64,000 bases of DNA from Kofleriaceae bacterium (lineage in GTDB: Bacteria > Myxococcota_A > Polyangia > Haliangiales > Haliangiaceae): the NCBI GenBank assembly GCA_024762925.1, contig JANTGM010000002.1:1-64000 (forward strand). The letters run 5' to 3'. A program made the translations under genes and the position numbers. The notes below the pieces were generated by a model, which had not been told where the DNA came from, ran no database searches, and saw only the letters and a program-made list of their open reading frames with translations. Shown here one piece after another: positions 13,515 to 34,740 of this stretch (positions are counted from its first letter, which is position 1; each line of letters begins with the position of its first letter).

Positions 13515-15043
13515 GTGAGGGACAAAACACCGGGGTGACGCAAACCAAGCGGCGATTTGGGCTTCAGCTAAAGCTCGTCGGCGCCCTGCTCATGCTATCG
13601 CTGCTACCTCTCACGGTGAGTGCCTTGCTCGTGGGGAACATTGGCGAAGTTGCGCAGAACTTTGCGAGCCACCATGTTGAGAGTCTGCGTCCACATTTGA
13701 GCCGAGCACAGAACGCCTATCGTCAGGTCATCGCTGCGAAGAAATCTGAGTTCCAAGAGGTCGCCAGGCGACTCGCTGCAAGTGACGAGCTAGCACAACG
13801 TTTGCGCGAGCGTTCGGAAGACGGATGGGAGCCTTTAGCATCAAAACTGCTCGCTGAGCATCCGGAACTCATCTCGGTTGCGATTGTGAATGGTCAGGGT
13901 GTTGAGATGGCCAAGGCTGAGCGCGAACCTAGTCTTCCAAAGGAGCGGGTCCGCAAACTTGCTATGCCACAAGCGGTTGGAGTTGGTGGTGCGCAGCTGC
14001 AATTGGTCTTTGCTGCGGACTTGCAGCCAGTGCTCGAGTTGCAGGCAATTGGAGAGGCGCTGGAGGCATCTAGAAGGGTTGACACTGTCAAGTCCAGCTT
14101 GCCTGAGTCCTACCGCCTGGCGTTTCTTCTTTTGGTTGGTGGTGTCGTCGTCGTCGTGACCATTCTCGCGCTGTTATTTGCCAGGAGAATCAGTAGAAGG
14201 ATCGCCTCCTTGGTCGCGGGAACAAGAGAGGTTGCACGAGGCGACCTTGGTGCACGAGTCGCGCTCGATGGCAATGATGAACTGGCAGAGTTGGCGACCG
14301 CTTTCAACACCATGGTCAATGATTTGCAGCAGGAAAGGCAGAAGACTCTCTACTTGCAGAGGATTGGCGCATGGCAGGACGTTGCTCGCAAGCTCGCTCA
14401 CGAAATCAAGAATCCGCTCACACCGATTCAGTTGGTGGTGCAACAAGCAGTCTCTTCGTATCCGGGAGATGACCCCCGCTATCAAAAACTACTGGCAAGC
14501 TGCGACGAAATCGTTCGTGAGGAAGTACAAGGTCTCAGACGCTTAGTCGATGCGTTTCGTGATCTTGGTCGTTTGCCAAAAGTCGAGGCGAGCGCACTAC
14601 CTGTTGCCGATCTTCTGAGTGACCTACGAGCAAACGTAGAACTTGGGCCGTGTATGGAAATCATCGAGGATGATGACGATATGGTCGTTAGTGCCGACCG
14701 CCTGCTGTTGCGGCGGGCCTTGGTGAATCTCTTAGAAAATGGCGTTCAGGCGGGTAAGGAAGGCATGGGGCGGGTCGTGCTCCGCTGTGCGCGCAAGGGC
14801 GATCTTGCGGAGTTCTCGATCGAGGATGAAGGGCCTGGTGTTGCCCGAGAAAAACGCGAACAGATCTTCGACCCTTATGTTACGAGCAAGGAGATGGGCA
14901 CAGGGCTCGGGTTGGCGATCGCCAAGAAAGTCGCACTCGATCACCGAGGAGCACTCTTCTTGGACGAGGAGCCTGGGCCTGCAGGCGGCGCTCGATTCGT
15001 GCTTACAATTCCCCTCGTATCGAGCGCGACTACTGAATCGTAA
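13511..15043 (+). CDS. NtrY-like membrane sensor histidine kinase
   Basis: A 510-aa sensor kinase. Two membrane helices (about 20-42 and 199-222) bracket a periplasmic sensor region; a HAMP domain follows (RRISRRIASLVAG), then the H-box ARKLAHEIKNPLTPIQL, an N-box (NLLENGVQAG), DEGPGV and GTGLGLAIAKK. All catalytic motifs are intact. The architecture matches NtrY, although the periplasmic part is short. No response regulator lies next to it in this window, so its partner must be elsewhere. Start GTG 13511 overlaps the preceding stop. Its last 14 nt overlap the end of the convergent gene at 15030. Operon context suggests it senses envelope state, an inference only. Confidence 0.9.
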   Translation: MSEGQNTGVTQTKRRFGLQLKLVGALLMLSLLPLTVSALLVGNIGEVAQNFASHHVESLRPHLSRAQNAYRQVIAAKKSEFQEVARRLAASDELAQRLRERSEDGWEPLASKLLAEHPELISVAIVNGQGVEMAKAEREPSLPKERVRKLAMPQAVGVGGAQLQLVFAADLQPVLELQAIGEALEASRRVDTVKSSLPESYRLAFLLLVGGVVVVVTILALLFARRISRRIASLVAGTREVARGDLGARVALDGNDELAELATAFNTMVNDLQQERQKTLYLQRIGAWQDVARKLAHEIKNPLTPIQLVVQQAVSSYPGDDPRYQKLLASCDEIVREEVQGLRRLVDAFRDLGRLPKVEASALPVADLLSDLRANVELGPCMEIIEDDDDMVVSADRLLLRRALVNLLENGVQAGKEGMGRVVLRCARKGDLAEFSIEDEGPGVAREKREQIFDPYVTSKEMGTGLGLAIAKKVALDHRGALFLDEEPGPAGGARFVLTIPLVSSATTES

Positions 15044-15899
15044 GTGTGTAGGAGCCAGTCTCGGTAGGGTTGGTTCCGAATGCATAGGCTCGCAGGTAGT
15101 ACAGACCCGAAGTCTCGACCACTTCATCGAGGCTCTCCTGATCGGTGGACGAAAATGAGAACGCCACCAAGTCGCCTTGCTCACCAGAGCTGGTGGCCTT
15201 GTAGAGACGCAAGTTGAGGGGAAGGATGTCGTGCTCAAAATCTGCGGTTAGTCGAATGCGTTGCCCGGCCTGACGCTCGAAGGCAAACCAGTCATCGCGA
15301 CATGGACAAATCCGCAGTTCGTAGGTGCCAGGACCGATAACAGGCACGTTGACAGGGAAGTCGTTTGGTTCGAAGGCATCACTGATGCAGTCATTGCATT
15401 GCCGGTCGCAAATATCGATCCAGCCGTCGCAGTTCTCATCTTCTTCGTTGTCACAAATCTCGTTGTTGTTCTCGCACGAGTTGGGAGAGCTGCCGGAGCA
15501 GGTGGGATTTGCCGGTTGGGGAGCGGTGGCATCCTTGGTAACAAGTAAAGAGGTAGGTTCGGAGATAAGACCATTGCCGATCGCGTAGACCGTGAGGTCG
15601 GTGCCGCCTGCTCCTTCTGCCAATTCCACGTCAGTGCAGAAGCTACCGCTGGGAAGAATAGCAACGATGCTCGTGCCATCGGCGCCACCCTGTACGACGA
15701 CACGCTGACCTTTGCTCGTTCCCCGAACAGCCACCGTGTCGTTTGGTGTTGTCTCAGGGATGGCATCGAGCAGTGGGACCTCAAGAGTCTCAACCGCCCC
15801 ACCATCTTCTTGTGGGCTATTCCCCTCCACCTTGTCGGCTTTGCAGCTTGCTAGGGCTAGCGCAGCGATCACGATCGTCTGTTTGAACAGCAATCCCAC
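15030..15899 (-). CDS. Lipoprotein with MopE-type Cys motif and PPC domain
   Basis: About 289 aa from GTG 15899, which gives a compact signal peptide with lipobox LASC. A beta-sandwich-like segment (about 45-130) is followed by a Cys-rich stretch with EICDNEEDENCDGWID, the MopE-type motif found repeatedly in myxobacterial surface proteins and linked in MopE to copper binding. The C-terminal part (EPNDFPVNVP through a final strand SYTLTIQ) fits a bacterial pre-peptidase C-terminal (PPC) domain, usually a secreted binding module. A TTG at 15968 would extend it by 23 residues without improving the signal peptide. No protease domain is present. Its end overlaps the NtrY-like gene by 14 nt, tail to tail. 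Confidence 0.7.
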   Translation of the reverse strand: MGLLFKQTIVIAALALASCKADKVEGNSPQEDGGAVETLEVPLLDAIPETTPNDTVAVRGTSKGQRVVVQGGADGTSIVAILPSGSFCTDVELAEGAGGTDLTVYAIGNGLISEPTSLLVTKDATAPQPANPTCSGSSPNSCENNNEICDNEEDENCDGWIDICDRQCNDCISDAFEPNDFPVNVPVIGPGTYELRICPCRDDWFAFERQAGQRIRLTADFEHDILPLNLRLYKATSSGEQGDLVAFSFSSTDQESLDEVVETSGLYYLRAYAFGTNPTETGSYTLTIQ

Positions 15900-16024
15900 C
15901 TTCGCCAAGGTAGCACGATTGTCCGGCCAATCGGTGTTATGGACGAGTAGCGGACGAGCCTTGTCCAAGGCTGCAGTTGTATCAATGCGTTGTCGATGGC
16001 ACCAGGAATGCTCAGTGGTTGTGC

Positions 16025-16570
16025 ATGACTTCTAAGCCAGAGCGTTTCCTCGTGTCTCTCGTATGTGCTCTATGCCTCTGTTGGTCGTGCGGTGCCCAAG
16101 ACACGCCAACGCAAGACGAACCTAGGTGCGCTGGGCCCTTTGAGAAAAACCTGCAGGCCATACTGAGATTGCAAGGCGCCTCTAAGACGTATTCCTATTT
16201 GCCAAATAGCGAAGTCTTAGATCAGCTCTCTCGCTACCCGGATTCAATTTGCCCACGGGTGGCCATGGCTCGGGCCATTGTCGCGCTTGTGAACCATGAT
16301 GCCGTGGAATCCTTGGGAGCTGTGGGGCGCGAGAGGGGGGATCCAGCGTGTGGACCCTTGTGCTTGATCGGGCGTCGCTCATCGCTGTTTGGGATCGTGG
16401 CGGATCGCAACTCACCGCTTCGGAATCAGCTCTTGCCCATCGCGCCCAATCTGCAATCTGTAGAGGCGCACTGGGTGTTCTTCTTATCGGTATCAGAACT
16501 GAGCGAGCATGGGTATTGGGCGCTTGTCGCACGTGATGGCAGCGGCGTTGAGGTTGTCTCAACCAACTAG
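16025..16570 (+). CDS. Predicted lipoprotein of unknown function
   Basis: A 181-aa protein from ATG 16025. The N-terminus (FLVSLVCALCLCWSC) is a signal peptide with a Cys at the lipobox, followed by a GAQDTPTQD linker. The body is mixed alpha/beta with a Cys pair (CGPLC at about 118-122) and no recognised motif. It is divergent from the MopE/PPC lipoprotein gene and ends inside the left arm of the palindromic element. I do not recognise a family. Confidence 0.55.
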   Translation: MTSKPERFLVSLVCALCLCWSCGAQDTPTQDEPRCAGPFEKNLQAILRLQGASKTYSYLPNSEVLDQLSRYPDSICPRVAMARAIVALVNHDAVESLGAVGRERGDPACGPLCLIGRRSSLFGIVADRNSPLRNQLLPIAPNLQSVEAHWVFFLSVSELSEHGYWALVARDGSGVEVVSTN

Positions 16571-16694
16571 CGCATGACTCAAAGATGTTGAACGCGCTCA
16601 CTCGTCTTCTCGCCCGCTGGACAGACTGGCTCTGCTACGCGTCCACCGGCGAGAAGACGAGTGAGCGCGTTCTATATTCATGAATCGCGCACTA
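16569..16694. repeat. Palindromic intergenic element with a perfect 25-bp stem
   Basis: Bases 16590-16614 and 16648-16672 are perfect reverse complements around a 33-nt loop. Outside the stem the arms remain imperfectly complementary out to CTAG on the left and CTA on the right. It exactly fills the space between two convergent genes and touches both stop codons. Bases 16667-16692 are identical, in reverse complement, to 41221-41246. It could be a REP or MITE-like unit and may also act as a bidirectional terminator, though neither side has a T-run. Confidence 0.8.
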
Positions 16695-17615
16695 AAGCGA
16701 CCCAGCGAGTGTCAGCACAGCGCCACCACGCACCACCCCAAGTGATAGTGCCTGAGGAGGAGGCTCGGTGGGACGCAGAAAGAGATAGGTCGCAATGCCG
16801 CCGAGGAGTGCACCTGCTCCATATCCGGCTAGCGCGGGGCCAGTGCTGTCACGAGCATGGAAGACAACGCCGGTGCCAATCGCAACTGTGCCGAGGCTCA
16901 GCGCAAGGTAGGGGAGGGGACCCGCACCGCGTTCATCTCGCACGCTTGGCAAGGGCGTCGGAGTCGGCGCTCTTTGGTAGCGCTTGGCAAGGAGTGTCTT
17001 GAACTTCTTCGGTCTTGGATCGGCCGCGCTGGCAACTTGGCCTAGTTCGGCGCCTCGCTCTGCGGTCATGTCGATGCTTGTTTGGTTTGTTCCAGACTCG
17101 GGCTTCAAGGTTATGGGGATGAGCATGCGATCGGTGGAGTCAACTTCGATCGCGAAGCGCCCGCCTTCGAATCCCTCTGCCATCACCTCAAGCTCATAGC
17201 GTCCTTGGTGCAGCCACAGCTCGTCCTCGGTTCGAAGGTCAAGTCTCGCGTAGTCCGATGGCACGTTGGTCACAATGAGTGTGGCGTGTGCGGTTTCTGG
17301 AGTGAGCGCGAGTGAGACAGGAGCAGCCTTGGACATCGATTTTCGTATTCGTTCCCGTACCTCGTGCATTACTTGACGGGTCTCCCTGCTAGGAGTTTTT
17401 CTGTGACAGCGCTCTAGGTAGAGAAGCGCAAGTGTGTCGCTGCGTTGCTTCGAGGCGAGATCTTGGCCTAGCTCGCAAGCATCTTGATCTGTGATGGGCT
17501 GCTCGGCAATGGAGATGTTGGTATCGGGCTCGGCTCCAGTATTGGGCTCGGCCTCGGCGAGCGCAGCCCCACAGGCAAGCATGGCTAGGGCGATAGTCGT
17601 GTGTGTGAGGAGCAT
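16692..17615 (-). CDS. Secreted/membrane protein with PEGA-like domain
   Basis: About 307 aa from ATG 17615. A signal peptide (MLLTHTTIALAMLACGAALA) is followed by an acidic segment, an alpha-helical part with CELGQDLA and YLERCHRK, and a PEGA-like beta domain at about 110-170 (LIVTNVPSDYARLDLRTEDE, GRYELEVMAEGF). Two or three hydrophobic segments near the C-terminus (about 240-295) predict membrane insertion. This domain plan is frequent in myxobacterial kinases and companion proteins, where the PEGA domain sits outside the cytoplasm. TTG 17633 and GTG 17621 are alternative starts. It lies 39 bp downstream of the PhnD-like gene and could belong to that operon. Confidence 0.6.
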   Translation of the reverse strand: MLLTHTTIALAMLACGAALAEAEPNTGAEPDTNISIAEQPITDQDACELGQDLASKQRSDTLALLYLERCHRKTPSRETRQVMHEVRERIRKSMSKAAPVSLALTPETAHATLIVTNVPSDYARLDLRTEDELWLHQGRYELEVMAEGFEGGRFAIEVDSTDRMLIPITLKPESGTNQTSIDMTAERGAELGQVASAADPRPKKFKTLLAKRYQRAPTPTPLPSVRDERGAGPLPYLALSLGTVAIGTGVVFHARDSTGPALAGYGAGALLGGIATYLFLRPTEPPPQALSLGVVRGGAVLTLAGSL

Positions 17616-17654
17616 CTTCACTGTAGAGACCAAGATGAACTCTGTTGTGACACA

Positions 17655-18425
17655 CTATTGCTGCAGAGCAAGAAGTGGGCGGTAGGCATCGGGGGGGGGA
17701 ACTTCCACGTCATCAACGGCGAGAGCTGCGCAAAAAACCTGTCGGTGTGCGGGGTTGGCAGCTAGGCTGGCAAGTCGGTGGGAGACGTCATCATTGCCTG
17801 CCACCACAGGGCTCACAACAACGCCATCATTGGAGCATTCCTCGGTATAGGCAAAAACGCGCAAGTGATGAGCTTCTTCCTTGCAAACCTCGACGTATCC
17901 CACCCCACGGGCATTTGCGTACGAGGCCGTGACGTCAGCTTCGCACGCCATCACGGCTTCAAAGCATGCCTCGTATGAACCGAGCACGGACTCTTGCTCA
18001 AAAGCTTGCACGAGATCGATGCCTCGCGCACGCAGATGGTGTCGGGGCATTACATAGCCGCCCATACTCTGTGGGTCCACCCACACCGCTCGCAACCGGC
18101 GGAGCCCAATACTGCCCACTTCTTCAATCTTCAAGTCATCGTGGGAGCGGCAAAGAAGCGCCGAGCGATAGACGCTAGCGCCATAGCGAACGGCGCGAAA
18201 CACAACCGAGCCCCCAGCCTCTTGCACTCGCGCACACACCATAGGTGGGCCCCATGCAGCATGAATCTCTCCGCTCAGAAGTCTGCGCTCTAACGTCTCG
18301 TAGGAATCAACAGGCACTACGGTGGAGAAGCCCGCCTCATAGAGAATCGCTGCGAACTGACGCGCGAGGGTCCGAACGTTTTTCGCACCGAGAGATGGTG
18401 GCAGGGCGAAGCAGAGACCGGACAC
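17655..18425 (-). CDS. PhnD-like phosphate/phosphonate-binding fold protein without signal peptide
   Basis: A 256-aa periplasmic-binding-protein fold of the PhnD/TauA-like type 2 class: the pattern LARQFAAILYEAGF, SYETLERRLLSGEIHAAWGPP and the later GSYEACFEAVMACEADVTAS-like segment are characteristic (substrate-pocket regions before and after the hinge). The N-terminus, GTG 18425, begins directly in the first strand, so no export signal is seen and the protein is predicted cytoplasmic, unlike transport-type PhnD. No ABC permease or ATPase lies nearby. It starts 5 bp after the acyltransferase stop and is the fourth gene of the kinase operon. A ligand-sensing or regulatory role is inferred. 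Confidence 0.7.
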   Translation of the reverse strand: MSGLCFALPPSLGAKNVRTLARQFAAILYEAGFSTVVPVDSYETLERRLLSGEIHAAWGPPMVCARVQEAGGSVVFRAVRYGASVYRSALLCRSHDDLKIEEVGSIGLRRLRAVWVDPQSMGGYVMPRHHLRARGIDLVQAFEQESVLGSYEACFEAVMACEADVTASYANARGVGYVEVCKEEAHHLRVFAYTEECSNDGVVVSPVVAGNDDVSHRLASLAANPAHRQVFCAALAVDDVEVPPPDAYRPLLALQQ

Positions 18426-18430
18426 TCTCC

Positions 18431-19828
18431 CTAGTGTAGAACGGAGTCACGGTACTTGTCGACAAGCTCTGCAACCCGGTGGACCAGTTGCCTGCGCTCT
18501 TCACGCAAGTCGCGAATCTCCCTCCTCAGGGTGAAGATGCGAATCGTGCTCTTGGCTAGGTGCCGAAGGGCGTGCATACGGGCGATCACGTGAATCACCG
18601 CACCACCAGAGGCCGGAATGGTGAGTGCGACAAGAAGCCCTACCCAGGTTCCATGAGTGAGGAAGGCCCACGCCGAGAGCCCGAGGTAGAGGCAACCGAT
18701 GCCAAGAAATCCGAGCACAAACTTGGTGCTTGCGACCGTATCACTTCGTGGGGCAACAAAAATGCCACCAAGCTTGAGGGTCAAGCCGATGGGAAGAAAG
18801 ATTGGTGCCCCAACTAGAAAGAGCGGCAGCGAGATGAAGAGAAGCGTTAGATGCGCGCAAACATGCATCGCAATCTCGAGTGGGGCTAGCCCTCTTGCAA
18901 TGAGTGCATCGTCAAGGCTATCCGCACTAAGTCGCAACAGGTAGGCCCGTACAGCATCATACAATGCAACGACGTCGGCCTCTTTTGCGACCTTTGGGTA
19001 GGAGCTATTGAAGAGACGGGCGAGTCGTGCGCGCTCACTTAGGTCAATCCCCTCTGGCTGGTACAGTCTGCGCACTCCATCGAGAACCCAAACGTGTTCC
19101 CAGGTTTCCGCGTTGATCGTAAGACCTCGAAGACGCTCGTCGAGCGTGTCTGTGATGGAGCGAACAACCGATTCGTTGTCATCGTATGCGTTGGTGTTGT
19201 TCTTAGTGCTAGCAAGACTTCCATCTACGAGGATCGGCTCCCCAAACTGCACGAGAACCGAACTGCGAAATCGGTGTCGCGTGAAGTACACGAGACCAAC
19301 CGGGACCAGGTAAATCGGCAAGGTGCCACCATGTGCGTTGGTGGCAAGCGCGATCCTGGCGGCCCCCGTCTTCAGTGGAACAAGTTGAGATTCGTCATGG
19401 CTGATTCCCTCGGGGAAAATCCCCATGGCGCGACCTTCTAGCAGTACGTTTTCAAGTTCCCGGAATGCATCCTCGTTGCTCTGTTTGCCACCACCGTGAT
19501 CTTGGCGTCGACGAATTGCCACGGCTCCCATGATCCGCAGAAGAACACCAAGAATGGGAACCGAGAAGAGCGGGGCCTTGGCTGCAAAGTGCACAATTCG
19601 GCCGCTCCAGGCGGTTATGAGCACCGGATCCAGGAGCGAGTTTGGATGATTCCCACAAAAGATTACTGCACTGTTTTGTGGATTCGGCAGGCTTTCCCTG
19701 CCGACGACCTCGATGTTGCGAAAGAAAATCCGCGTGGCAAAGCGCAGGAGTCTTCGCAGAATCCGATAGGCGAGGAAGGAGCGTCGAGAGGTTGGGACTG
19801 CTAGGGTGGTCGGCTTAGGCGTTTCCAC
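18431..19828 (-). CDS. PlsC-type membrane acyltransferase
   Basis: A 465-aa glycerol-phosphate or lysophospholipid acyltransferase. The catalytic block I reads GNHPNSLLDP, the extended His-Asp form found in GPAT-like bacterial enzymes, and FPEGISHDE is block III. Residues about 325-415 contain three or four hydrophobic segments, and the C-terminus is a coiled, charged helix (LRREIRDLREERRQLVHRV). Two starts are possible; GTG 19828 has GGGGG at a good distance and overlaps the kinase gene's end by 14 nt, TTG 19861 would overlap more. It probably modifies membrane lipids. Direct overlap with a regulatory kinase gene is unusual and implies coupled expression. Confidence 0.85.
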   Translation of the reverse strand: METPKPTTLAVPTSRRSFLAYRILRRLLRFATRIFFRNIEVVGRESLPNPQNSAVIFCGNHPNSLLDPVLITAWSGRIVHFAAKAPLFSVPILGVLLRIMGAVAIRRRQDHGGGKQSNEDAFRELENVLLEGRAMGIFPEGISHDESQLVPLKTGAARIALATNAHGGTLPIYLVPVGLVYFTRHRFRSSVLVQFGEPILVDGSLASTKNNTNAYDDNESVVRSITDTLDERLRGLTINAETWEHVWVLDGVRRLYQPEGIDLSERARLARLFNSSYPKVAKEADVVALYDAVRAYLLRLSADSLDDALIARGLAPLEIAMHVCAHLTLLFISLPLFLVGAPIFLPIGLTLKLGGIFVAPRSDTVASTKFVLGFLGIGCLYLGLSAWAFLTHGTWVGLLVALTIPASGGAVIHVIARMHALRHLAKSTIRIFTLRREIRDLREERRQLVHRVAELVDKYRDSVLH

Positions 19829-22800
19829 CGTCAAGCCCCCATTCGCCGGCGAGCTGCACAATGCGCGCGTTGTCTTGCACTTGTTCTAAGAAGCTCAGCC
19901 TCCAGTTGGCATCGTCGATGTGCGCGACGCGCCTCCGAAGACTCTCATAGGCATCCGTGAGCGCCGCTTGTGCCTGTTCCAAGTGCATACACTGCAGCTC
20001 TGCTTCAACAAGCATCAGCCGCACAAATGATTCACCCTCTTCGACTTGCCCCAATGTACGCAGGATCCTCATCGCTTCTTGCGCTGCGGATAGGGCTTCT
20101 TCTGGTTGCCCCATCTCCAGCAAGACCGAGGCAAGCTGAGAGTGAGCTTGCATGCGTACCGTTGCCACCGTACTCGTTCCTTGGAGGGCCTCCCTCGCCT
20201 CCTTATAGGCCGAGTCGAGTGCGCCTTTGCGTTGGTGAATCTTGCTGAGATAGACCCGTGATCCATTGGCCATACGATCGTCGCCCTGGATCGTAAAGGA
20301 CTCGATTGCAATCAGTTCTAGGTCCCATGCCTCGTCGAGCTCGCCTAGCGCTAACAACACTCGCCCGAGATTGTTGCGTGCCAACGAGCCAATCGCGTCG
20401 AGCTCCATTTCAATGGCAACATCGAGAACCGAGCGGAGAATCGTTTCAGCGCTGCGATAGTCACCGAGTTCGGCGTAGGCAAAGCCAACATTGACGCGCG
20501 TGATTGCAGCGCTTCGTCGGTCGCCGCTTGCATCAAATGCGGCGGCGCTCTTTTCACTGAGCTTTAGGTAGTGTCCAGGGTCGCCCTCGCAAAGATAGCG
20601 ATTTGCTTGTGCGGAAAGTAGGTGTCCATCAACCACTGGATCCGAATCTTCGAGATTGCTTGTATCGGTCGGAAGCTCACGGAATAGGAGCTCCGCATCT
20701 TGATAGCGCCCTGCCAGAAACAGCCGGGAAGACGAACGTGCCATGGCGGATGCGAGCGCACCAGTCATTCCTCTCTCCTGGCAGGCTGAGACAAGTTCTG
20801 AACCTAGGGCCACGATGTCTGTGAATGCCCCGCAGCGACCGAGGGCTGTGACACCATCGCCTGCAGCTTCAGCCCAATCTCGTGAGCCACTTCTCAGGTT
20901 CTCAAGGGCGAGCGCACTGTGCTCGCTGGCACGGCCGTTCTCCCCCGTCCAGAGCAGCGCACGCGCGATGCTTCCATGAAGAAGTCCGAGCGTGGTTCGC
21001 TTTGCGCCGATTGCGATTCCGCGCTTTGCCAGCGATACCGCCGCCGACAAGTCGTTGCCTTCTAGGGCTTGCCGAGCAGCAGACGCGTACCAATCTGTTG
21101 CTCTCTCGTGCTCAAGGCCAAGTTCAAAGTGTTTTGCTAGCAGGAGTGCATCGCGTGAGCCTGTCTCGTGCAGCCAACGCGCAGCCAACCGGTGCCCAAG
21201 CTCACGATCGGTGTCGGTGAGGGTACTGTAGGCAGCCTCGCGCATAAGCACATTGCGAAAGCTGTACTGTTGTGTGGCGCCGGCTCGCGTCGCAGATGGA
21301 TCAACCGACTCGGTGAGGAACTCGGATTCGACAAGCGAATGCAGCGCTGGTTCAATGTCCGCTGTCGTAATCTCCTCGCCAAGAAGTCTTCTTAGTCCCC
21401 CAAATGAGAAACTCCCGCTGAAGATACTGCCCGCACGCAAGAGCTGCCTCGGCAAGGGGGCAAGCGTTTGGAGGCGTGCTTGGGCCAGCGCCAACACCGT
21501 ACCTGGAACTTGCTCTCCTTGAGAGAACTGATATGCGCGCGTTAGTTCTTCGAGGTAGAATGCGTTCCCGCCCGACAACTGGATCATGCGCTGCAGTTGC
21601 TCTTCCTTCGCAGCATGCCCCAAGATGCTGTGACTCAGTTGCCGGCACGCAGTCTCATCGAGCCCACCGAGCTTCATGACGGTGCAGTTGTGATCGGCCC
21701 AAAGAGATGGGAACACGTGCTCGATCTCAGGGCGCCCAATGCCGATGAGCATACACTGACCTCGCGTTACGCGTCGCAGAGCACCATCCATGAGACGAAC
21801 GGTAGGCAAGTCGCCCCAGTGCAAGTCTTCCAACACCAGGATTACCGGCGATCGGTTCGAGACTGCCGTTAAGAATTCTTCCCACGCTAGCCGCATCTGG
21901 TCACCCATGAGCACGGCATTTCCGCGTGCAGAGCGGAGTTGCACGCGAGCTTCGCTACCAACAAACGGCGCTTCACAAAGCTCCCCCAAGAACTCGGCAA
22001 CACGAAGGGCGCTAGAGCCCTCAATGTATTGCGAGACGGTTTGCACGAGCTTGTCCCGCCTCTTGGCGATATCGTCGTCTGGCGTGATGCCAACCGCTTG
22101 GTGCAAGAGTTGACGCAAGAGCTGGAATGCTGAGCCCTTTGCTAGGGCCTCCGCTCGCGCACTCCAGATCTTTAGATTCGGAGACTCGTTTCGAAGCAAA
22201 GAGAGAACCTGGGCGGAGAGGTGAGACTTTCCGATTCCCGGCTCTCCGATGACGAGCAGTGCCTGTGGGCGTTGTTCACGCAGGCACTGATGAAACAGGC
22301 TTGCAATCTGTGCAATCTCGGAAGTGCGCCCTACGGTTTGGGTCGTGCGGAGTTTTGGGCCGGCATTTGGCTGTTCGCCAAAGAGGTCAGTACCGTCAGC
22401 CGGCATGTCTTGCGAGCGCCTCCGAACATCAAAGCGACCATCGAGTAGTCGGGTTGTGGTCTGGTCCAAGCGAATGCTGAGCGGCCGAGCTTTGCCTTCC
22501 GTCGAAAACTCTGCCGTGCGAAGAAGCGTTGCGGCGCTTTGAATGGTCTTTGCGAGGGAGCGGCGGCCCGAGACTTCCCCCTGTCCTGTCGCGAGAGACA
22601 TCTTGCTCTCAGGTCGCATAGAGCGGAGCAGCAAGGCACAGCGCGTTGCTCGAAGCACAAGGTCGGTTGCAGCTCCGTTTTCGCTTCGAAAAATGATAAC
22701 CCCAGTTCCGTTCTCAAGAAGTTGCGCCTGCCCGCCTGCCCGCCGAAGCACATCCGCAAGGAGCCCGTCTTTCGTATCCTCAAATGCTCCCACCCCTTCA

Positions 22801-23702
22801 ATGAGAAGCACTGATAGTAGTTCCTTCTCCGAGGTGGTGAGCCCCACGGCCCCAGCCTCATCGACCGAGGGCACTGTTGCCGAGACGATTGCTCGGGCTC
22901 GTCGACTCAGAATCGTTCCATTCGCGGGGCGACGTTCCACATTGCTGGCCATCATGTCGGCGAGTAGGTCGTCAAACTCCGCACTGATGTCTGTGCGCTT
23001 CTCGCTCACCCTTGGAGGTTCATCAAACGCCGTTCGAGCCAACACGGCGACTACGTCCTCCCCGTGGAAAGGCCTGTGACCCACAAGACACTCGTAGATG
23101 ACGCAACCAAGTGCGTAGAGGTCGGCTCGTCCATCGATGTCAGCGTCGCCTCGGGATTGTTCTGGTGCCATGTATCCCGGCGTTCCGATGCTAATCCCCG
23201 TGCGTGTCATCTTTTCAACGGTGGGGCCGCGCCAGCGAGCGATACCGAAATCTAGCAGTTTGATTTGCTCAATACTGTTGTCGACCAGCATGAGGTTGCT
23301 CGGTTTTAGGTCACGATGAATAATCCCGTGGCGATGGGCAGAGTGCAGGGCCTCGCCAACACCTGCGATGATGTCAACCGCTTCCTGAAGCTCGAGCTTC
23401 TTGCGGTTCATACGCTGCCGTAGGTCTTCGCCTTTGACCCACTCCATGACGATAAATGGCGCACCGCGCTCGGTTTGGCCGTAGTCGACATACCCCACGA
23501 TGTTTTCGTGTTGTAGCTCGGCCATTACTTTGGCTTCGCGCAGAAACCGGCGAGAGTACTTGCTGGCATCGAGACTAAGAACTTTTATGGCAACTTGGTT
23601 GCCGCTCTGTTCATCAAGCGCACGGTACACCTTGCCCATACCGCCCGATCCTGCGAGAGATTGGATTTGATACCGCTCTGCGATTCGCTGCCCTATTCGC
23701 AC
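19815..23702 (-). CDS. Ser/Thr kinase fused to AAA ATPase and TPR region (PknK/MalT-like)
   Basis: A 1,295-aa soluble protein. The kinase domain (about 10-270) has AGSGGMGKVYRALDE, VAIKVL, HRDLKPSN, DFGIARW and GTPGYMAPEQ, all intact. A divergent cyclase-like or linker region follows (about 290-455). An AAA ATPase module starts near 470 with Walker A GEPGIGKSHLS and a Walker B-like VILVLEDLHWGD. From about 800 to the end there are TPR repeats (for example VGFAYAELGDYRSAETILRS). This plan resembles PknK-type kinases and the large myxobacterial kinase-ATPase-TPR proteins that integrate signals. Start GTG 23702 is 2 bp after the upstream stop. No membrane helix is evident. Substrates are unknown. 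Confidence 0.92.
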   Translation of the reverse strand: MRIGQRIAERYQIQSLAGSGGMGKVYRALDEQSGNQVAIKVLSLDASKYSRRFLREAKVMAELQHENIVGYVDYGQTERGAPFIVMEWVKGEDLRQRMNRKKLELQEAVDIIAGVGEALHSAHRHGIIHRDLKPSNLMLVDNSIEQIKLLDFGIARWRGPTVEKMTRTGISIGTPGYMAPEQSRGDADIDGRADLYALGCVIYECLVGHRPFHGEDVVAVLARTAFDEPPRVSEKRTDISAEFDDLLADMMASNVERRPANGTILSRRARAIVSATVPSVDEAGAVGLTTSEKELLSVLLIEGVGAFEDTKDGLLADVLRRAGGQAQLLENGTGVIIFRSENGAATDLVLRATRCALLLRSMRPESKMSLATGQGEVSGRRSLAKTIQSAATLLRTAEFSTEGKARPLSIRLDQTTTRLLDGRFDVRRRSQDMPADGTDLFGEQPNAGPKLRTTQTVGRTSEIAQIASLFHQCLREQRPQALLVIGEPGIGKSHLSAQVLSLLRNESPNLKIWSARAEALAKGSAFQLLRQLLHQAVGITPDDDIAKRRDKLVQTVSQYIEGSSALRVAEFLGELCEAPFVGSEARVQLRSARGNAVLMGDQMRLAWEEFLTAVSNRSPVILVLEDLHWGDLPTVRLMDGALRRVTRGQCMLIGIGRPEIEHVFPSLWADHNCTVMKLGGLDETACRQLSHSILGHAAKEEQLQRMIQLSGGNAFYLEELTRAYQFSQGEQVPGTVLALAQARLQTLAPLPRQLLRAGSIFSGSFSFGGLRRLLGEEITTADIEPALHSLVESEFLTESVDPSATRAGATQQYSFRNVLMREAAYSTLTDTDRELGHRLAARWLHETGSRDALLLAKHFELGLEHERATDWYASAARQALEGNDLSAAVSLAKRGIAIGAKRTTLGLLHGSIARALLWTGENGRASEHSALALENLRSGSRDWAEAAGDGVTALGRCGAFTDIVALGSELVSACQERGMTGALASAMARSSSRLFLAGRYQDAELLFRELPTDTSNLEDSDPVVDGHLLSAQANRYLCEGDPGHYLKLSEKSAAAFDASGDRRSAAITRVNVGFAYAELGDYRSAETILRSVLDVAIEMELDAIGSLARNNLGRVLLALGELDEAWDLELIAIESFTIQGDDRMANGSRVYLSKIHQRKGALDSAYKEAREALQGTSTVATVRMQAHSQLASVLLEMGQPEEALSAAQEAMRILRTLGQVEEGESFVRLMLVEAELQCMHLEQAQAALTDAYESLRRRVAHIDDANWRLSFLEQVQDNARIVQLAGEWGLDGGNA

Positions 23703-23704
23703 CG

Positions 23705-24502
23705 CTAGTCGTTCTTCTTCTTTTTGCCGCTCTTCTTCTTGCTATCTCTTCCGCGGAGAAACAGCGGGGTGCGGCCCTTCTTGCGATTGTACTGCCAGGC
23801 GTAGCCGAGGCCGATCGCTGACGAGGCGAGTGCGCCGACAAACATGAAGGGGGCTAGCAAGAAACTTGGGAGTACGTAGTAGGCGGCAGCGAAGGCGAGG
23901 GTGGCTGGAACCGCCTCCCGAAACGAACCCGCATAGAGCCAACCAACAGGACCAAAAATCGAGAGTGCCGCTGATGCAAGTAGGGATTTTTCTCCCTTGG
24001 CACGAGGTTTGTCGAGCATGCTCAGCGGCTTGTCGAGAGTGACCAAAGCGGTGGTGCTGGCGACCAGTGCAGCCTTACCGACCATGCCCGCAATGCTTGG
24101 CCCATCCGACTCATCGTTGTCATCATCAGATGAGTCGTAACGTTTCTTCTTTGGCTCGATCGATTCCTCGGGCTCCTCCTCGTCAAGCGTTGGATCTGGT
24201 TTGCCCGCACGCCGGGCTAGAATTCGACGCTTCGCTTCTTCTATGAGTTCGCGCTTGCGCTCATATGCTTCGCAGGTCGATGGGCCGTCAGCGGATCGCG
24301 TGACTCCGGGCATGAAGTATGTGACATCCTCGCTGTCATCAATTTCGATGTCGAGGGTGCCTGCTTTGAGCAGCTTGTCGATCCAGTTCGTGAGTTTCTT
24401 GCTCGAAACCCCCGAAAAGTACTGGAGGTTTGCGTGAGTGAGCGGAATGCGAGACTTCACCCACAACTCCAACACTTTTGACTCGAATTCGTCGCGATCC
24501 AC
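23705..24502 (-). CDS. Winged-helix-like protein with C-terminal membrane segments
   Basis: A 265-aa protein. Residues 1-65 resemble a winged helix (LELWVKSRIPLTHANLQYFS, then KKLTNWIDKLLKAGTLDIEI). A charged linker rich in Glu, Lys and Asp follows (about 85-135), then hydrophobic segments at about 170-230 that predict two or three membrane helices, and a Lys-rich tail. A DNA-binding-like head on a membrane tail suggests a membrane-tethered regulator or a scaffold for the following kinase. The start is GTG 24502. It is the first gene of the four-gene operon. I do not recognise a named family. Confidence 0.6.
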   Translation of the reverse strand: MDRDEFESKVLELWVKSRIPLTHANLQYFSGVSSKKLTNWIDKLLKAGTLDIEIDDSEDVTYFMPGVTRSADGPSTCEAYERKRELIEEAKRRILARRAGKPDPTLDEEEPEESIEPKKKRYDSSDDDNDESDGPSIAGMVGKAALVASTTALVTLDKPLSMLDKPRAKGEKSLLASAALSIFGPVGWLYAGSFREAVPATLAFAAAYYVLPSFLLAPFMFVGALASSAIGLGYAWQYNRKKGRTPLFLRGRDSKKKSGKKKKND

Positions 24503-24514
24503 GAGATACCTGGC

Positions 24515-24530
24515 CTTAGCTAAGTATACT
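24515..24530. promoter_or_regulatory. Candidate divergent promoter with a shared palindromic -10
   Basis: The 38-bp gap between the divergent starts at 24502 and 24541 holds CTTAGCTAAG (24515-24524), a perfect palindrome, overlapping AGTATACT (24523-24530), also a perfect palindrome that reads TATACT on both strands. That gives a plausible -10 in each direction with leaders of only a few bases. No clear -35 is visible. Confidence 0.35.
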
Positions 24531-24540
24531 CTGCCTACTC

Positions 24541-24885
24541 ATGCTCGCTCGCGCAATGCTTCTGGCCTTCCTCGTTGTTCTTGCCCCAACTGGCTGTGGA
24601 TCACCTGGGGCTGGGCAGGGTGAGGTGCAAGAGTCGGACGATGAAGTCCATGATTATGCCTCTGAACGCCCCAAGCGTGGCCGAGTCAAAGACAAAGATG
24701 ATGTCTCCGAGAAGGGCAAGGAATGGGGCGGTTGGCGCTGGAAGGGAGAGCGCAACAACTGTGTCTACGTTTTCAACAACAAGTGCTTCAAGGAGAAAAA
24801 GGCCGCTTGCAAGGCGGCCGGCTGTGAAGGCAGCGCATGCCTAGAGAAGCGTGGTGCGCCTTCCAAGATCAAGTGTCGAAAGTGA
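24541..24885 (+). CDS. Small Cys-rich predicted lipoprotein
   Basis: A 114-aa secreted protein. The signal peptide (MLARAMLLAFLVVLAPTGC) ends at a Cys with a weak lipobox. A charged, acidic-to-basic linker follows, then a compact C-terminal part with six Cys from about residue 74 (NNCVYV, NKCFKEKKAACKAAGC, GSACLEKRG, IKCRK), which suggests three disulfides and a small extracytoplasmic binding or toxin-like fold. It is divergent from the winged-helix gene across 38 bp, so it may be co-regulated with that operon. It ends 1 bp from the convergent lipid kinase gene. I do not recognise the family. Confidence 0.6.
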   Translation: MLARAMLLAFLVVLAPTGCGSPGAGQGEVQESDDEVHDYASERPKRGRVKDKDDVSEKGKEWGGWRWKGERNNCVYVFNNKCFKEKKAACKAAGCEGSACLEKRGAPSKIKCRK

Positions 24886-24886
24886 T

Positions 24887-25939
24887 CTATGCGCCTGTCA
24901 GCTTTGGGATTCGCACCCGAGGACCGTTCTTGAACGTGAGCTTTTTGACACGGTCGTAGTATTCGCCATCGATAATTGGCGCGAGCAGTTCGTCACCCAA
25001 GACTTCGACAGTCATGCCGCGGCATGCTTTGTCGATGAGGTTCTTGCCGCGCAGCTGCTTACCTCGATGCATGTTGCCAAGGTTGCGAAGAATTTGAAGG
25101 GGGTTTGGAGACCCGACAATTGCATGCATTTGCCCTGGCACGTCAGCGCGTGTGAAGAGCTTGAAGACGCCACCGAGATCGATGGACATCGAGGCAATAT
25201 GAACGCCTGTGAACTGTGTTTGTTCAAGCGGCTGCCCGTCTAGTGTGACACGCACGTTTGCTGGCTTAAACATATCTGTGGCATAGGTCCGCAGGTGCTT
25301 GGGCACAACAGGAAATGGAATCTTTCCAAGAGGTGAGTACGCCACCGGTAACGAGGCGATGGTATTGCCAACGACCTTTACGATGACGCCTGGGTTTGGA
25401 TCATCTTCTGCGTAGTACTTGCTAAAGAAGCGCTGACCCAAACCGCCAACCGCAGACGCGAAGCCATAGGTGCGAAACTCTTCTTCATTGCCGTGCTCAT
25501 CCAGTTGCACGCCTTCGATGAGCATCGAATCCACAAGCGCTTCCTCAAGAACGGTTCCGCGCTCAATTGATTCTCGCAGGTTGTGCAAGATGCCCTCAGC
25601 TTGGCCGGTAATGCCGACGTTGCTGGCCACAAAGTCGATGGTTCCACCGTTGGTGGGAATGGTAGTCGGAAGCTGATAGTTGCCGTCCCGAAACTCAGGT
25701 TCTTGGAGAAGCTCAAGACCGTTTCGAACAACCCAGTGAAGGGCACCGTCACCTCCGTCGGCAACCCAGTATCGTGCACGCTTGCGCAAAAACTCTCGAA
25801 GAATCGGTTTGATGGACTCCACGCTTTGGGTGCTGTGTACCTGACCGTGGTGTCCGACAATTGCTTGGAGCTGCTCGGCCCGGTGGGGGCGAGCTTTGTT
25901 CTTTCGAGAGTGTGGATTGGTGATGACGCCGATTTGCAT
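24887..25939 (-). CDS. Diacylglycerol/sphingosine kinase-family lipid kinase
   Basis: A 350-aa soluble lipid kinase of the DAGK catalytic family (YegS/BmrU-like). The N-terminal IGVITNPHSRKNK is the family opening, ADGGDGALHW is the nucleotide-binding loop in which Ala replaces the usual Thr, and PTTIPTNGGTIDFVA is the second conserved block. The C-terminal domain contains the usual beta-sandwich with a GEYY-like acidic site. It should phosphorylate a membrane lipid from the cytosolic face. ATG 25939 has a strong GAAGGAG Shine-Dalgarno. It is convergent with the small Cys-rich gene and upstream of nothing obvious. Confidence 0.88.
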   Translation of the reverse strand: MQIGVITNPHSRKNKARPHRAEQLQAIVGHHGQVHSTQSVESIKPILREFLRKRARYWVADGGDGALHWVVRNGLELLQEPEFRDGNYQLPTTIPTNGGTIDFVASNVGITGQAEGILHNLRESIERGTVLEEALVDSMLIEGVQLDEHGNEEEFRTYGFASAVGGLGQRFFSKYYAEDDPNPGVIVKVVGNTIASLPVAYSPLGKIPFPVVPKHLRTYATDMFKPANVRVTLDGQPLEQTQFTGVHIASMSIDLGGVFKLFTRADVPGQMHAIVGSPNPLQILRNLGNMHRGKQLRGKNLIDKACRGMTVEVLGDELLAPIIDGEYYDRVKKLTFKNGPRVRIPKLTGA

Positions 25940-26108
25940 AGAGCAGGCTCCTTCATGCCCTTGTGCAGCAATTGTCGGTCCATCTCTACAATTGCGCTAA
26001 CTAACCTGAATCACTTGATGGGAGATCGCGCCAACAGCGACGCACTGCGTAAGACGTTACGCAACCAGCCCCCAAGTGAGTAGCGGGCTATCCAGTGCCA
26101 ATAGCCAG

Positions 26109-26894
26109 TTATTTGCCGTGAAATTCCGGCTTGCGCTTCTCAAGAAGGGCGGCCATGCCCTCTTTGGCATCCTGCATCTTAAGCGTTGCAGCCTGTGCGA
26201 ACGATTCTCGGTGGGCCCCTGCGCGAACATCCCAGCCAAGTTGTTCGCGCATGCCCTGCTTGGTAAGGCGAACTGCAACTGGTGCGTTCGAAGCAATTGT
26301 CGTCGCCATTGCCATGGCTTCTTCTAAGACTTCTTCTGGTGTCTCGTAGGTACTGGATGCCAACCCAATGCGCTCGGCTTCATCGCCCATCACAAGGCGT
26401 CCTGTAAAGAGCAACTCGTTTGCACGCGAAACGCCAACGAGCCGTGGCAGGAGGTAGCTGATGCTCATGCCGGGGCTCAGACCAAGTTTCGTGAAGTTCG
26501 CGCCGTACTTGGAACCCCGATGCGCGATACGGATGTCGCATACCAGGGAGAGCCCAAAACCACCGCCAACGGCATGGCCATTGAGTGCACCAATGACAGG
26601 CACTTCGATATCAAGAACGCTGAGGAAGGGCTCATACATCTGAAACGAGCGCTCGTGGTCGAGCAAGTGCTCACCGCCGGTTTGAAGGTTTGACTTGAAG
26701 TCAGCACCTGCGCTGAAACAGCGACCGCGCCCAGTAATGACAACGGCGCGAAGCTCCCGGTTTTCTCGCGCCGCGTTCGCGGCATAAGAAAAACTCTCAA
26801 GGAGTTCGGGCGTCATGCTGTTGCGATTGTCTGGCCGATTGAGAGTGATGACCCCAATGCCATCGCTGCACGTGAGCGTAACTGCATCCTCCAT
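26109..26894 (-). CDS. Crotonase (enoyl-CoA hydratase/isomerase) family protein
   Basis: A 261-aa crotonase-fold protein, probably acting on acyl-CoA. Oxyanion-hole segments are present: CFSAGADFKS and NGHAVGGGFGLSLVCDI. The two glutamates of classical enoyl-CoA hydratase are not: the first is replaced in GFGLSLVCD and the second in ANFTKLGLSPGMSISYLLPR. The segment with PGMSISYLLPRLVG is typical of a crotonase subgroup often annotated as hydratase without proof. It starts 3 bp after the stop of the giant TPR gene, so it is probably cotranscribed with it. Hydratase activity should not be assumed. Confidence 0.85.
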   Translation of the reverse strand: MEDAVTLTCSDGIGVITLNRPDNRNSMTPELLESFSYAANAARENRELRAVVITGRGRCFSAGADFKSNLQTGGEHLLDHERSFQMYEPFLSVLDIEVPVIGALNGHAVGGGFGLSLVCDIRIAHRGSKYGANFTKLGLSPGMSISYLLPRLVGVSRANELLFTGRLVMGDEAERIGLASSTYETPEEVLEEAMAMATTIASNAPVAVRLTKQGMREQLGWDVRAGAHRESFAQAATLKMQDAKEGMAALLEKRKPEFHGK

Positions 26895-26897
26895 CGG

Positions 26898-29800
26898 TTA
26901 CTCCGATATCTGCGCCAAGAAGTCCTCGGCTTCGGAGTATGCGGGGTCTTCGCGAAGGGCCTTCTTCGCCCAGAGCTCGGCCTTTGCCCGATTGCCCCGA
27001 GCATGTTCGATCTTAGCCTCCCAGAGCAGCGCCATCACACGGCTCACAGGTTCCGGATCGTCCATTAGCGTGATGGCTCGCAGGGGTTTGAGTGCCAAGT
27101 CGTAGTCGCCGAGCTCTGTCGCCAAGTGAGCCAGCTCGGATGCAATGAGCCCATCTTTGCGATCGACATCAAAGGCTTTCTTGAGCCATGCAAGTTGCTC
27201 AGCCTGATCGCCCCGCGAAGCGCCAATCTTGGACATTCGGTACTGTAGCGCTGCCAACTCAGGTGACCGGCGCTTGTGTGCGGCAATGGCGGGTTCCAAC
27301 ATCGAGACCGCTTCTTCCAGCTGCCCCGAGGCGATCAGTACATCGGCCAAGAGTGCAACTGTCGCGTGATCGTCCGGACGTAGTTCCTTTGCACGTTGGG
27401 CTGGCGCGATCGCGGCTTCGGCGTCACCAAGCTCATTGACAAAAATGGACGCAGCACTTCGGAAGATTTCGTAGCGCTCATCATCATCCGTGCTGTAGGT
27501 GGCGTCGACGAGCAAGAGGTTCGCAAGTTCTCGTTGAGCGCCCAGGCCTTGATACGTCGTGCGCAATTGCTCGCGGATCTGTGCGTTGTCAGGCTGGTCT
27601 TGATGCACCCGCTCAAGGCCTGCTCGGCCATGCTCATTGGCGCCAATTTGCTCTGCGGCACTAGCGAGAAGCAGCGCACTGCTCACCTGTTCTTCACCCG
27701 TTTCCAACCCCACGAGGTGGGTGCACGCCGTAACCACGCCATCCCAACGTTCTGCGGCTCGGTCCATGTCGCGAAGTCGCTGGAGTGCAGCAAGGTCCTG
27801 CGCATCCCGCTCAATCCACGCCATCAACATCGCGCGTGCTCCCTCTTCGTTGCCTTGAGCATCATAGAGTTCAATCAGTCGCATTGTCGTTGCACGTTCG
27901 AGTTCGAGGTCCCCTTGTTCACTGGCGGTCACTCGCGACTGCTCGAGTGCTTGCATGAGTATCGGCAACACCATTTCGCGATCCAGATCGAGAGCGCCCT
28001 CTAGATCGGCAATGGCTTCGGCGTTTTGCCCCACGTTGCGATAGAGGTCGGCGCGGAGGAGCAACAAGGGAAGAGCGTTGCCGCCTGTGATGTGCTCGAG
28101 GCCAGCGGTGATTGTGGCAATGCCATCATCCATGCGCCCAGCGGCTGCGTGAGTGGACGCTTGCTCGCTGACGAGTGTTTCATCGCCAGGAGCAAGAGCC
28201 AATGCTCTGGCCAAGATGCCCGTACATCCATCGAGGTCGGAAAGCGAGTCTCGATACAGTGCACCGGCCTCGCGATAGAGGCGAACTTGTGCGTTTACAT
28301 CTTCGTGGGCTTCGGCCTGGGCGATCTTCATCTTGGCAAGAGGGGCCCATTGAGCGGTCTCTCGATACCAACCCTCAAGTCGATCGCGAATGCCTTCGTG
28401 GGTTGGGCATGCCTGTTGTCCTAGTTCCAGTGCTCGCTGGACCCCCTCGTCATCCTCCAGAACTTCTCTGAGTTCGACCAAGTGCAAGGCCAGTTCGGCG
28501 GCCCGCTCTGGATCTTCAACTCGGAGAAGTCGCTCTGAGAGCTCTGCCTGTACGGCGAAATCAGCATTATCATCGAGGCGTTCAAGAATGCCTCGCAGAA
28601 GTGGGGCACTCTCAGGGGCAACTGCAACTGCTTGCTGGTAGACCTGCATCGAATCGCCATCCAGCTGATCGAGAAGTGCTCCAAGCCGAACTGCGACGTC
28701 CGTGATGGTCTCAGGATTTCCGCGTTCCTTCGCGTCATTGAAGCGCTGCCACAGAAAATCACTGAGAGCCTCTTCATTACCTTCCTTGCGGAGAACGCTC
28801 TCAAGAAGCCCTGCTGCATCAAGGCTGTCAGGGTCATCAAGACAGGCGTCGCGAAGCACCTCGATGGCGTCATCATCGCGATTTGCGTCCACGAGATACT
28901 GCGCCTTGTGAAGGCGGAGCTGAGTGCGTTCGCTTGGATCCACTAGGCTTGGAAGCGTTGCATCGACAAGCTCGCTAAGCTGCTCACCACTCCCAGTGTC
29001 ACGATAGAGCGCCAAGAGTGGTTCCCAAATCGCACGGGCGTTTGGATCACGGCTGCGAAGAAACTCGAGTATCTCGGCCGTCATGGCGAAGTCTTCCAAG
29101 GCCTTGCTGTTTTCGGCAAGCTCGAGGCCCAAGCTCATGACGTCTTCTTGGCTTGCGAGGTAGGCGATTTCGAAGAGGAGCTCCTTTGCATCGCCAACCC
29201 GCCCGGTAGCTCCGTAGTGCCTTGCTAGATCAGCTACCGCCCAAATCGCTTGTGACAGCCCATCATCGGATACACGAGCCGCTTGCACCGCATGCTCAAG
29301 AAGGACAACGGCTCGGTCGCTTTCTTCGAGTTCGGTAGCGAGACTCACTGCTTCTCGAATTTGTGCGACCGTTGCGTCGCCGATTGCAGATTTTCGCTCC
29401 AAGAAGTCGAGCAAGATCTGCTTGTCACCGCTTTGGCGCGCGGCAGATTCATAGTGAGATAGCACCATCGGATCGTTGCCTGAACTCTCTGCGGCCTTTC
29501 GCAAGGTCATGGCTGCTTGTCGATAGCGTGGCTCGACAGAGAGGGCCTTGGTTAGAAGTTCTATGCCGCGCTCGAGCAGGTCGGGTTGCACGACTTGTAG
29601 CTCTGCAAGTCGGTAGAGAGCATCAGCTTGTGCTGCCACCGGACCGTCCACCATCGCAAGAGTGGTGAGCTTGTCTAGCGCACGAGTTTGCTCCTCGGCG
29701 TCTCCTTGTGCTGCGCAGACTCTTGCAAGAGCAAAGAGCGCATCTGCTGGGGCGCTACTACAATCCTCGGCCGCGCTAAAGTGCTCGCGCGCTTTTGCGA

Positions 29801-34637: not shown

Positions 34638-34740
34638 TCCAGCCTCTGTCCTGCGTATGTGTTGACGGTGGTTGCGTTGGTATTCACCGGATGTGGTCCG
34701 GGTAGCCAATGTCGCTCACTGGCGAGCAGCCAAAGGCGCT

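Follow-up and report, generated by a model that had tools for sequence, protein, structure and literature searches.

Myxobacteria have some of the largest sets of Ser/Thr kinases among bacteria, and the input signal is unknown for most of these kinases. Several described arrangements show how such a signal may be delivered. STAND proteins are switched by the binding of an inducer, as for MalT, and PknK has been named as a STAND kinase (PMC4381067). GlnH, GlnX and PknG of Actinobacteria are encoded in one operon, and in the proposed scheme the binding protein GlnH, which senses a metabolite, activates the TPR kinase PknG via the membrane protein GlnX, with the TPR region receiving the signal (PMC8546545). 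A signalling system may also have a binding protein as its first component, the role played by AioX, ArxX and ArrX (PMC5908839). Here we describe a locus on the minus strand of a 64,000-nucleotide stretch of a Kofleriaceae bacterium (contig JANTGM010000002.1, positions 1 to 64,000; the window, below, is this whole stretch), which encodes a winged helix-turn-helix (wHTH) membrane protein (gene 1), a giant Ser/Thr kinase (gene 2), an acyltransferase (gene 3) and a PhnD-like binding protein (gene 4), followed by a fifth gene. We take the locus for a genuine operon whose combination of genes is rare, and for a probable variant of known sensing arrangements. A first-pass annotation made from the letters of the DNA had suggested either lipid remodelling or cytosolic ligand sensing; we tentatively prefer the latter, with the PhnD-like protein as the sensor of a PknK-like STAND kinase.

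Gene order and the PhnD-like protein

The first four genes had been predicted as open reading frames (ORFs) with spacing of +2, -14 and +5 bp. Their coordinates, strand and domain content were borne out by the ORF list and Pfam (Table 1), and the spacing was confirmed by reading the junctions from the DNA. The kinase gene starts with a GTG 2 bp after the stop codon of the wHTH gene, its TAA lies in a 14-bp out-of-frame overlap with the acyltransferase gene when the latter begins at its preferred GTG (19828; the ORF opens with a TTG at 19861), and the GTG of the PhnD gene stands 5 bp behind the acyltransferase stop codon. The sister genome, that of Kofleriaceae bacterium Ww100 (G002), keeps the order kinase-acyltransferase-PhnD-gene 5 on one contig (L111) and the order lipid-kinase-like gene-wHTH-kinase start on another (L091), and the proteins of the two species are 53% (kinase), 72% (acyltransferase) and 67-68% (PhnD) identical. 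The kinase and acyltransferase genes of the sister overlap by 8 bp, and its PhnD gene follows after a gap of about 14 bp. As the wHTH-kinase gap varies, from 2 bp here to about 14 bp in another relative (G001) and about 170 bp in the sister, while the downstream junctions stay tight, kinase-acyltransferase-PhnD is the predicted translationally coupled core. The G001 assembly has a completeness of 82%, and the contig stops within the kinase gene, so it does not count as a genome that lacks the PhnD and acyltransferase genes.

Pfam places a kinase domain at residues 11-265 of the gene 2 protein (Pkinase, 1.5e-49), an ATPase domain at residues 457-653 (AAA_16, 3.9e-16) and TPR repeats at the C-terminus (TPR_12, 2e-11). 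The kinase motifs VAIK, HRDLKPSN, DFG and APE and the Walker A motif GEPGIGKS are all intact, so that the protein combines the parts by which a PknK-like STAND Ser/Thr kinase is recognized: a protein kinase, an AAA ATPase with a Walker A motif and a TPR-type C-terminus. It belongs to a large paralogous family of a common kinase type, present in several copies in many related genomes and with as many as eight strong matches in one of them. The gene 3 protein matches PF01553 (72.4 bits against a cut-off of 23, 4e-20) and fits the PlsC/GPAT type, with the motifs NHPNSLLDP, GAVAIRRR, FPEGIS and VPVG, which are kept in orthologues, although the first motif reads H-x5-D rather than the usual H-x4-D. 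Hydrophobic helices lie near its C-terminus, at about 325-423. It scores 66.6 against the cut-off of 102.95 of the 1-acylglycerol-3-phosphate acyltransferase family TIGR00530 and thus falls outside it. That gene 3 encodes the sole PlsC of the genome was considered and rejected, as the genome holds 12 PF01553 matches.

The gene 4 protein matches the Phosphonate-bd family PF12974 at 83.9 bits (gathering cut-off 27, 1.4e-23), while the PhnD transporter component TIGR03431 gives 22.6 bits against an equivalog cut-off of 261.1. The nearest solved structures in a PDB profile search are AioX (2.5e-20), PtxB, ArrX (lower) and PhnD. The first-pass annotation had called this protein signal-less, and this holds, since neither a signal peptide nor a membrane helix is predicted and the frame upstream of the GTG reads TGA-CTC-CGT-TCT-ACA-CTA-GGG-AGA-GTG: with an in-frame TGA 7 codons before the GTG and no start codon between, a longer start is impossible and a missed upstream signal peptide is ruled out.

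Signal-less PhnD proteins are common in the class (Polyangia), and at least 14 Ser/Thr kinases have a PhnD domain at their C-terminus (loci include L255, L137, L140 and L144-L148). Thirteen fetched PhnD-type ORFs consist of an N-terminal Ser/Thr kinase and a C-terminal PhnD domain, four of which were checked with Pfam, and a fourteenth fusion lies in the genome of the window itself (L255, G000:C32:12310-13041; kinase at 20-284, helix at 367-385, PhnD at 438-638). No helix separates kinase and PhnD in L011/L140, L017, L026, L029/L137 (from the sister species) and L030, which places the fused PhnD domain in the cytosol; others have a helix between the two, and for L019 and L020 the helix is predicted within the PhnD domain itself and is probably spurious. 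We found no description of PhnD-kinase fusions or of cytosolic PhnD proteins in myxobacteria in the open-access literature. The link between PhnD and kinase is what generalizes from this locus, which makes the fusions a broader and more interesting lead than the operon itself.

A cytosolic sensor and its alternatives

The reading we hold likeliest, without giving it even confidence, is that the unit is a cytosolic ligand-sensing kinase system. Of the two suggestions of the first-pass annotation, cytosolic ligand sensing is thus the one that gains support, from the lack of a classical export signal, the abundance of signal-less PhnD proteins in the class and the PhnD-kinase fusions of many relatives, some of which have no membrane helix. 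The PhnD-like protein is best taken as the sensor of the kinase because relatives often fuse a PhnD domain to a Ser/Thr kinase, because here the signal-less protein shares a tight unit with a kinase that is kept in the sister species, because its nearest profile relatives AioX and ArrX signal to sensor kinases and not to transporters, and because the eight Pfam-annotated genes of positions 15030-26894, to which the search was confined, include no identified ABC permease or ATPase. The protein would remain in the cytoplasm, where its two lobes would close on a small ligand, probably not plain phosphonate; one of its two states would bind the TPR/STAND part of the co-translated kinase and would thereby switch the NOD ATPase and hence the kinase, which would phosphorylate targets, plausibly the membrane-bound wHTH protein, the membrane acyltransferase or both. 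We infer the binding of PhnD to the kinase, its control by a ligand and the identity of the targets, and the acyltransferase and the wHTH protein as outputs are conjecture. If the reading is true, a binding-protein fold that normally serves transport in the periplasm has found a second use in the cytoplasm, as the sensor of a kinase, and fused or co-translated PhnD-like domains would offer a testable input, as finding the ligand of the domain would give the signal for the kinase class. A bolder version, for which we would claim little probability, is that Polyangia use cytosolic PhnD-fold proteins as exchangeable ligand sensors of Ser/Thr kinases, either fused or separate (in this operon, a separate protein would address the STAND/TPR half of the giant kinase), and that the output here acts directly on the lipid composition of the membrane and on a transcription factor bound to it.

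A number of observations weigh against the sensor reading. The pocket of the PhnD-like protein keeps Tyr42, Tyr86, Ser120 and Asp200, and it has changed from S-x-S to S-x-G (Gly122) and from His to Tyr151. Kinase-fused PhnD domains keep both S-x-S and the His, and most other free signal-less PhnD proteins keep the His and have lost the second Ser. With two of the compared pocket residues lost, the ligand has probably shifted away from plain phosphonate, and ligand binding by the protein is itself putative. An AF2 model of the PhnD-like protein, built from a four-sequence alignment, reached a pLDDT of 42 and was not used. The fused kinases are of a different, shorter type without AAA and TPR parts, most free signal-less PhnD genes of the class are not beside a kinase, and the PhnD, acyltransferase and wHTH genes are absent from all 20 of the 20 neighbourhoods of other kinases of the gene 2 type. 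The distribution of the gene set counts in the same direction. Relatives were compared in 56 genomes, and wider scans covered 84,980 species genomes and a 377-genome sample of the phylum; gene maps of the relatives came from a simple gene caller that failed on low-GC loci, and statements about neighbours rest on loci where it succeeded or on tblastn. Of the 56 genomes, 4 (G002, G016, G027 and G030) have a close PhnD relative, at 41-68% identity. Three records besides this genome have a close PhnD among the species genomes, and the sister's alone has the kinase and the acyltransferase, while the phylum sample yielded, apart from G030, distant PhnD relatives only. The complete set is found here and in the sister species, there split over two contigs. 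Synteny of the four families across Myxococcota, which the first-pass annotation had named as a check, is refuted, as the genes have other neighbourhoods elsewhere, and a gene set as rare as this speaks against a conserved pathway of general occurrence. Because the flanking genes are conserved as well, shared descent alone could have kept the gene order.

In a rival reading that we consider somewhat unlikely, the unit is a lineage-specific assemblage: in this genus, genes for a paralogue of a common kinase type, for an acyltransferase and for a PhnD protein landed behind the conserved wHTH gene and share a transcript without sharing a pathway. For it speak the different neighbourhoods of each gene elsewhere and the restriction of the whole set to two sister species, and in genus g5 the wHTH gene precedes a different kinase unit. 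The out-of-frame overlaps and short gaps of the core, however, are kept in both species despite divergence to 53-72% identity, and the fusions of PhnD to kinases point to a functional connection. Less probable still is a lipid-remodelling module, in which a metabolite that contains phosphorus or is a lipid would be sensed by PhnD or by the kinase, and the kinase would tune the membrane acyltransferase and thereby alter phospholipid composition. The intact acyltransferase motifs, the overlap of its start with the kinase stop, the lipid-kinase-like gene that is a conserved neighbour of the wHTH gene, and the binding of a lipid (a sterol) by the PF12974 protein BstB (PMC10942540) speak for such a module. 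Acyltransferase orthologues elsewhere (L117-L121, L128 and L129) are followed by an alpha/beta hydrolase gene, with a 4-bp overlap in most, and past that hydrolase several genomes of related genera have genes for a PhoU-like DUF47 protein and a PiT phosphate transporter, which hints at a phosphate-linked lipid role. The same orthologues travel without the kinase or PhnD, however, the tie to the present unit is the adjacency of the acyltransferase gene, and with 11 further PF01553 matches in the genome gene 3 is not its sole enzyme of this kind.

Very unlikely, in our judgement, is a PhnD-like protein that is unrelated to the kinase and serves in the cytosol to scavenge or buffer a ligand such as a metabolite or a toxic oxyanion. 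Free signal-less PhnD genes of the class mostly stand without a kinase, as said; in this genome, prolidase and FKBP genes accompany one paralogue, and one orthologue follows a lanthipeptide-type dehydratase gene, all of which would suit such a role. The kinase fusions in relatives and the signalling precedent of AioX and ArrX (PMC5908839) point the other way, towards the sensor.

Other features of the locus

Table 1. Features of the operon in the window
Feature	Coordinates	Strand	Basis
Gene 1, wHTH-membrane protein, 265 aa	23705..24502	-	ORF
Gene 2, Ser/Thr kinase-AAA_16-TPR, 1295 aa	19815..23702	-	Pfam, motifs
Middle domain of the kinase, probably degenerate nucleotidyl-cyclase-like (ferredoxin-type)	22338..22877	-	fold search, tentative
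Gene 3, PlsC/GPAT-type acyltransferase	18431..19828	-	PF01553, motifs
Gene 4, PhnD-like binding protein, 256 aa, without signal peptide or membrane helix	17655..18425	-	PF12974
Gene 5, 313 aa, N-terminal signal-like helix, C-terminal hydrophobic stretches	16692..17633	-	ORF

The gene 2 protein carries an extra domain between its kinase and AAA_16 domains (residues about 276-455). The copy in the window has no Pfam match, and single relatives give scattered matches at chance level. A PDB profile search gave a weak co-linear match to the adenylate cyclase 2w01 (E 0.54). An AF2 model has a core pLDDT of 65-80 and an overall pLDDT of 54; with this low-confidence model, the top Foldseek matches were to the adenylyl cyclase Ma1120 (best E 9e-4), and a VIA-align comparison gave Z values of 6-7.5 for cyclases, with an unrelated fold in the top row (8.5). 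The catalytic residues of class III cyclases were judged by eye to be missing. The domain is tentatively read as probably a degenerate nucleotidyl-cyclase-like fold of the ferredoxin type, and this is graded as probable at most because the model is of low confidence and the other evidence is weak.

Gene 1 begins with a winged-helix-like stretch at residues 1-70 (24502-24293), assigned by eye, and has a hydrophobic domain at residues about 166-240 (24007-23783) with the conserved motif GEKS..SG.LS..FGP.GWLYAGSFREA.PA. The protein has no significant Pfam match (best MarR, E 0.12) and no PDB match with a six-sequence profile. Homologues occur in 34 of the 56 relatives, at a single locus each (rows with two matches are two pieces of one ORF). 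The membrane domain alone is conserved, as other genera have a helical segment in place of the N-terminal wHTH, and in genus g5 the gene is followed by one for a protein of 250-280 aa and then by that of the different Ser/Thr kinase. The two halves of gene 1 lie in different frames in G001 (L092 8903-9634), maybe through a draft assembly error. Within the family, gene 1 usually stands in a conserved block with two genes that adjoin it here, a small lipoprotein-like gene (24541-24885) and a diacylglycerol-kinase-like gene (24887-25939, the lipid-kinase-like gene above). A 2603-aa repeat-rich (TPR-like) protein is encoded at 26898-34709 and is conserved next to the block in several relatives.

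With a TTG as its start codon, gene 5 begins 21 bp past the PhnD gene, and with an ATG about 39 bp past it; it is likely the final gene of the operon, encoding a predicted exported protein. It has no Pfam or NCBIfam match and is kept beside PhnD in the sister species (L111 1131-2099, 157 bits). The next gene past it (15977-16570) is convergent. A scan for promoters and terminators gave no more signals than were found in shuffles.

A second signal-less PhnD paralogue of this genome (L135 4619-9161, minus strand, G000:C3) is grouped with genes for a PepQ-like M24 prolidase, a triple-FKBP protein and an APH-type kinase, and the sister genome retains PhnD and prolidase as a pair (L133). In another genome (L132/L244), a PhnD orthologue lies 24 bp downstream of a lantibiotic/thiopeptide-type dehydratase gene (PF04738, 4.9e-162), and the contig ends inside the PhnD gene; a link between PhnD and lanthipeptide genes was dropped, as it concerns a single genome and a contig edge.

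Comparison with known systems

The TOMM system kinase/cyclase fusion resembles gene 2 in length and, tentatively, in the order of a kinase, a cyclase-like middle and a C-terminal half. Membership in this family (TIGR03903) was rejected at 239.5 bits against a cut-off of 705.75, with the best stretch being the kinase domain, and the systems also differ in that no TOMM biosynthesis genes were identified among the annotated neighbours here. Kinases of the PknK type share the combination of a Ser/Thr kinase, a STAND ATPase and a TPR-rich C-terminal half, whereas the present kinase has the extra middle domain, PhnD and acyltransferase partners and a place in a myxobacterial paralogue family. The Polyangia kinase-PhnD fusions join the same two modules as this operon in one polypeptide but have shorter kinases without AAA and TPR parts, keep S-x-S and the His, and in some cases include a transmembrane helix.

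The likeness to GlnH-GlnX-PknG lies in an operon for a binding protein, a membrane protein and a cytosolic TPR Ser/Thr kinase. GlnH, however, is an exported lipoprotein that needs GlnX to act across the membrane, whereas the binding protein here is predicted to be cytosolic and belongs to the PhnD family; a STAND ATPase is also part of the kinase here, and the accompanying membrane protein is linked to a wHTH. As in AioX-AioS and ArrX-ArrS, a binding protein of the PhnD fold would signal to a kinase and not to a transporter, but those proteins are periplasmic and have histidine kinase partners. The AioX/ArrX pocket (Tyr88, Cys106, Tyr131, Ser161, Ser163, His192 and Asp210 in AioX numbering; PMC5908839) is not reproduced in full here: Tyr42, Tyr86 and Ser120 are kept, but the positions of Cys106 (the arsenite Cys), Ser163, His192 and Asp210 hold Pro60, Gly122, Tyr151 and Tyr169. 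Because its binding protein is not exported and these AioX pocket residues are missing, the unit stands outside the known sensing systems that it resembles.

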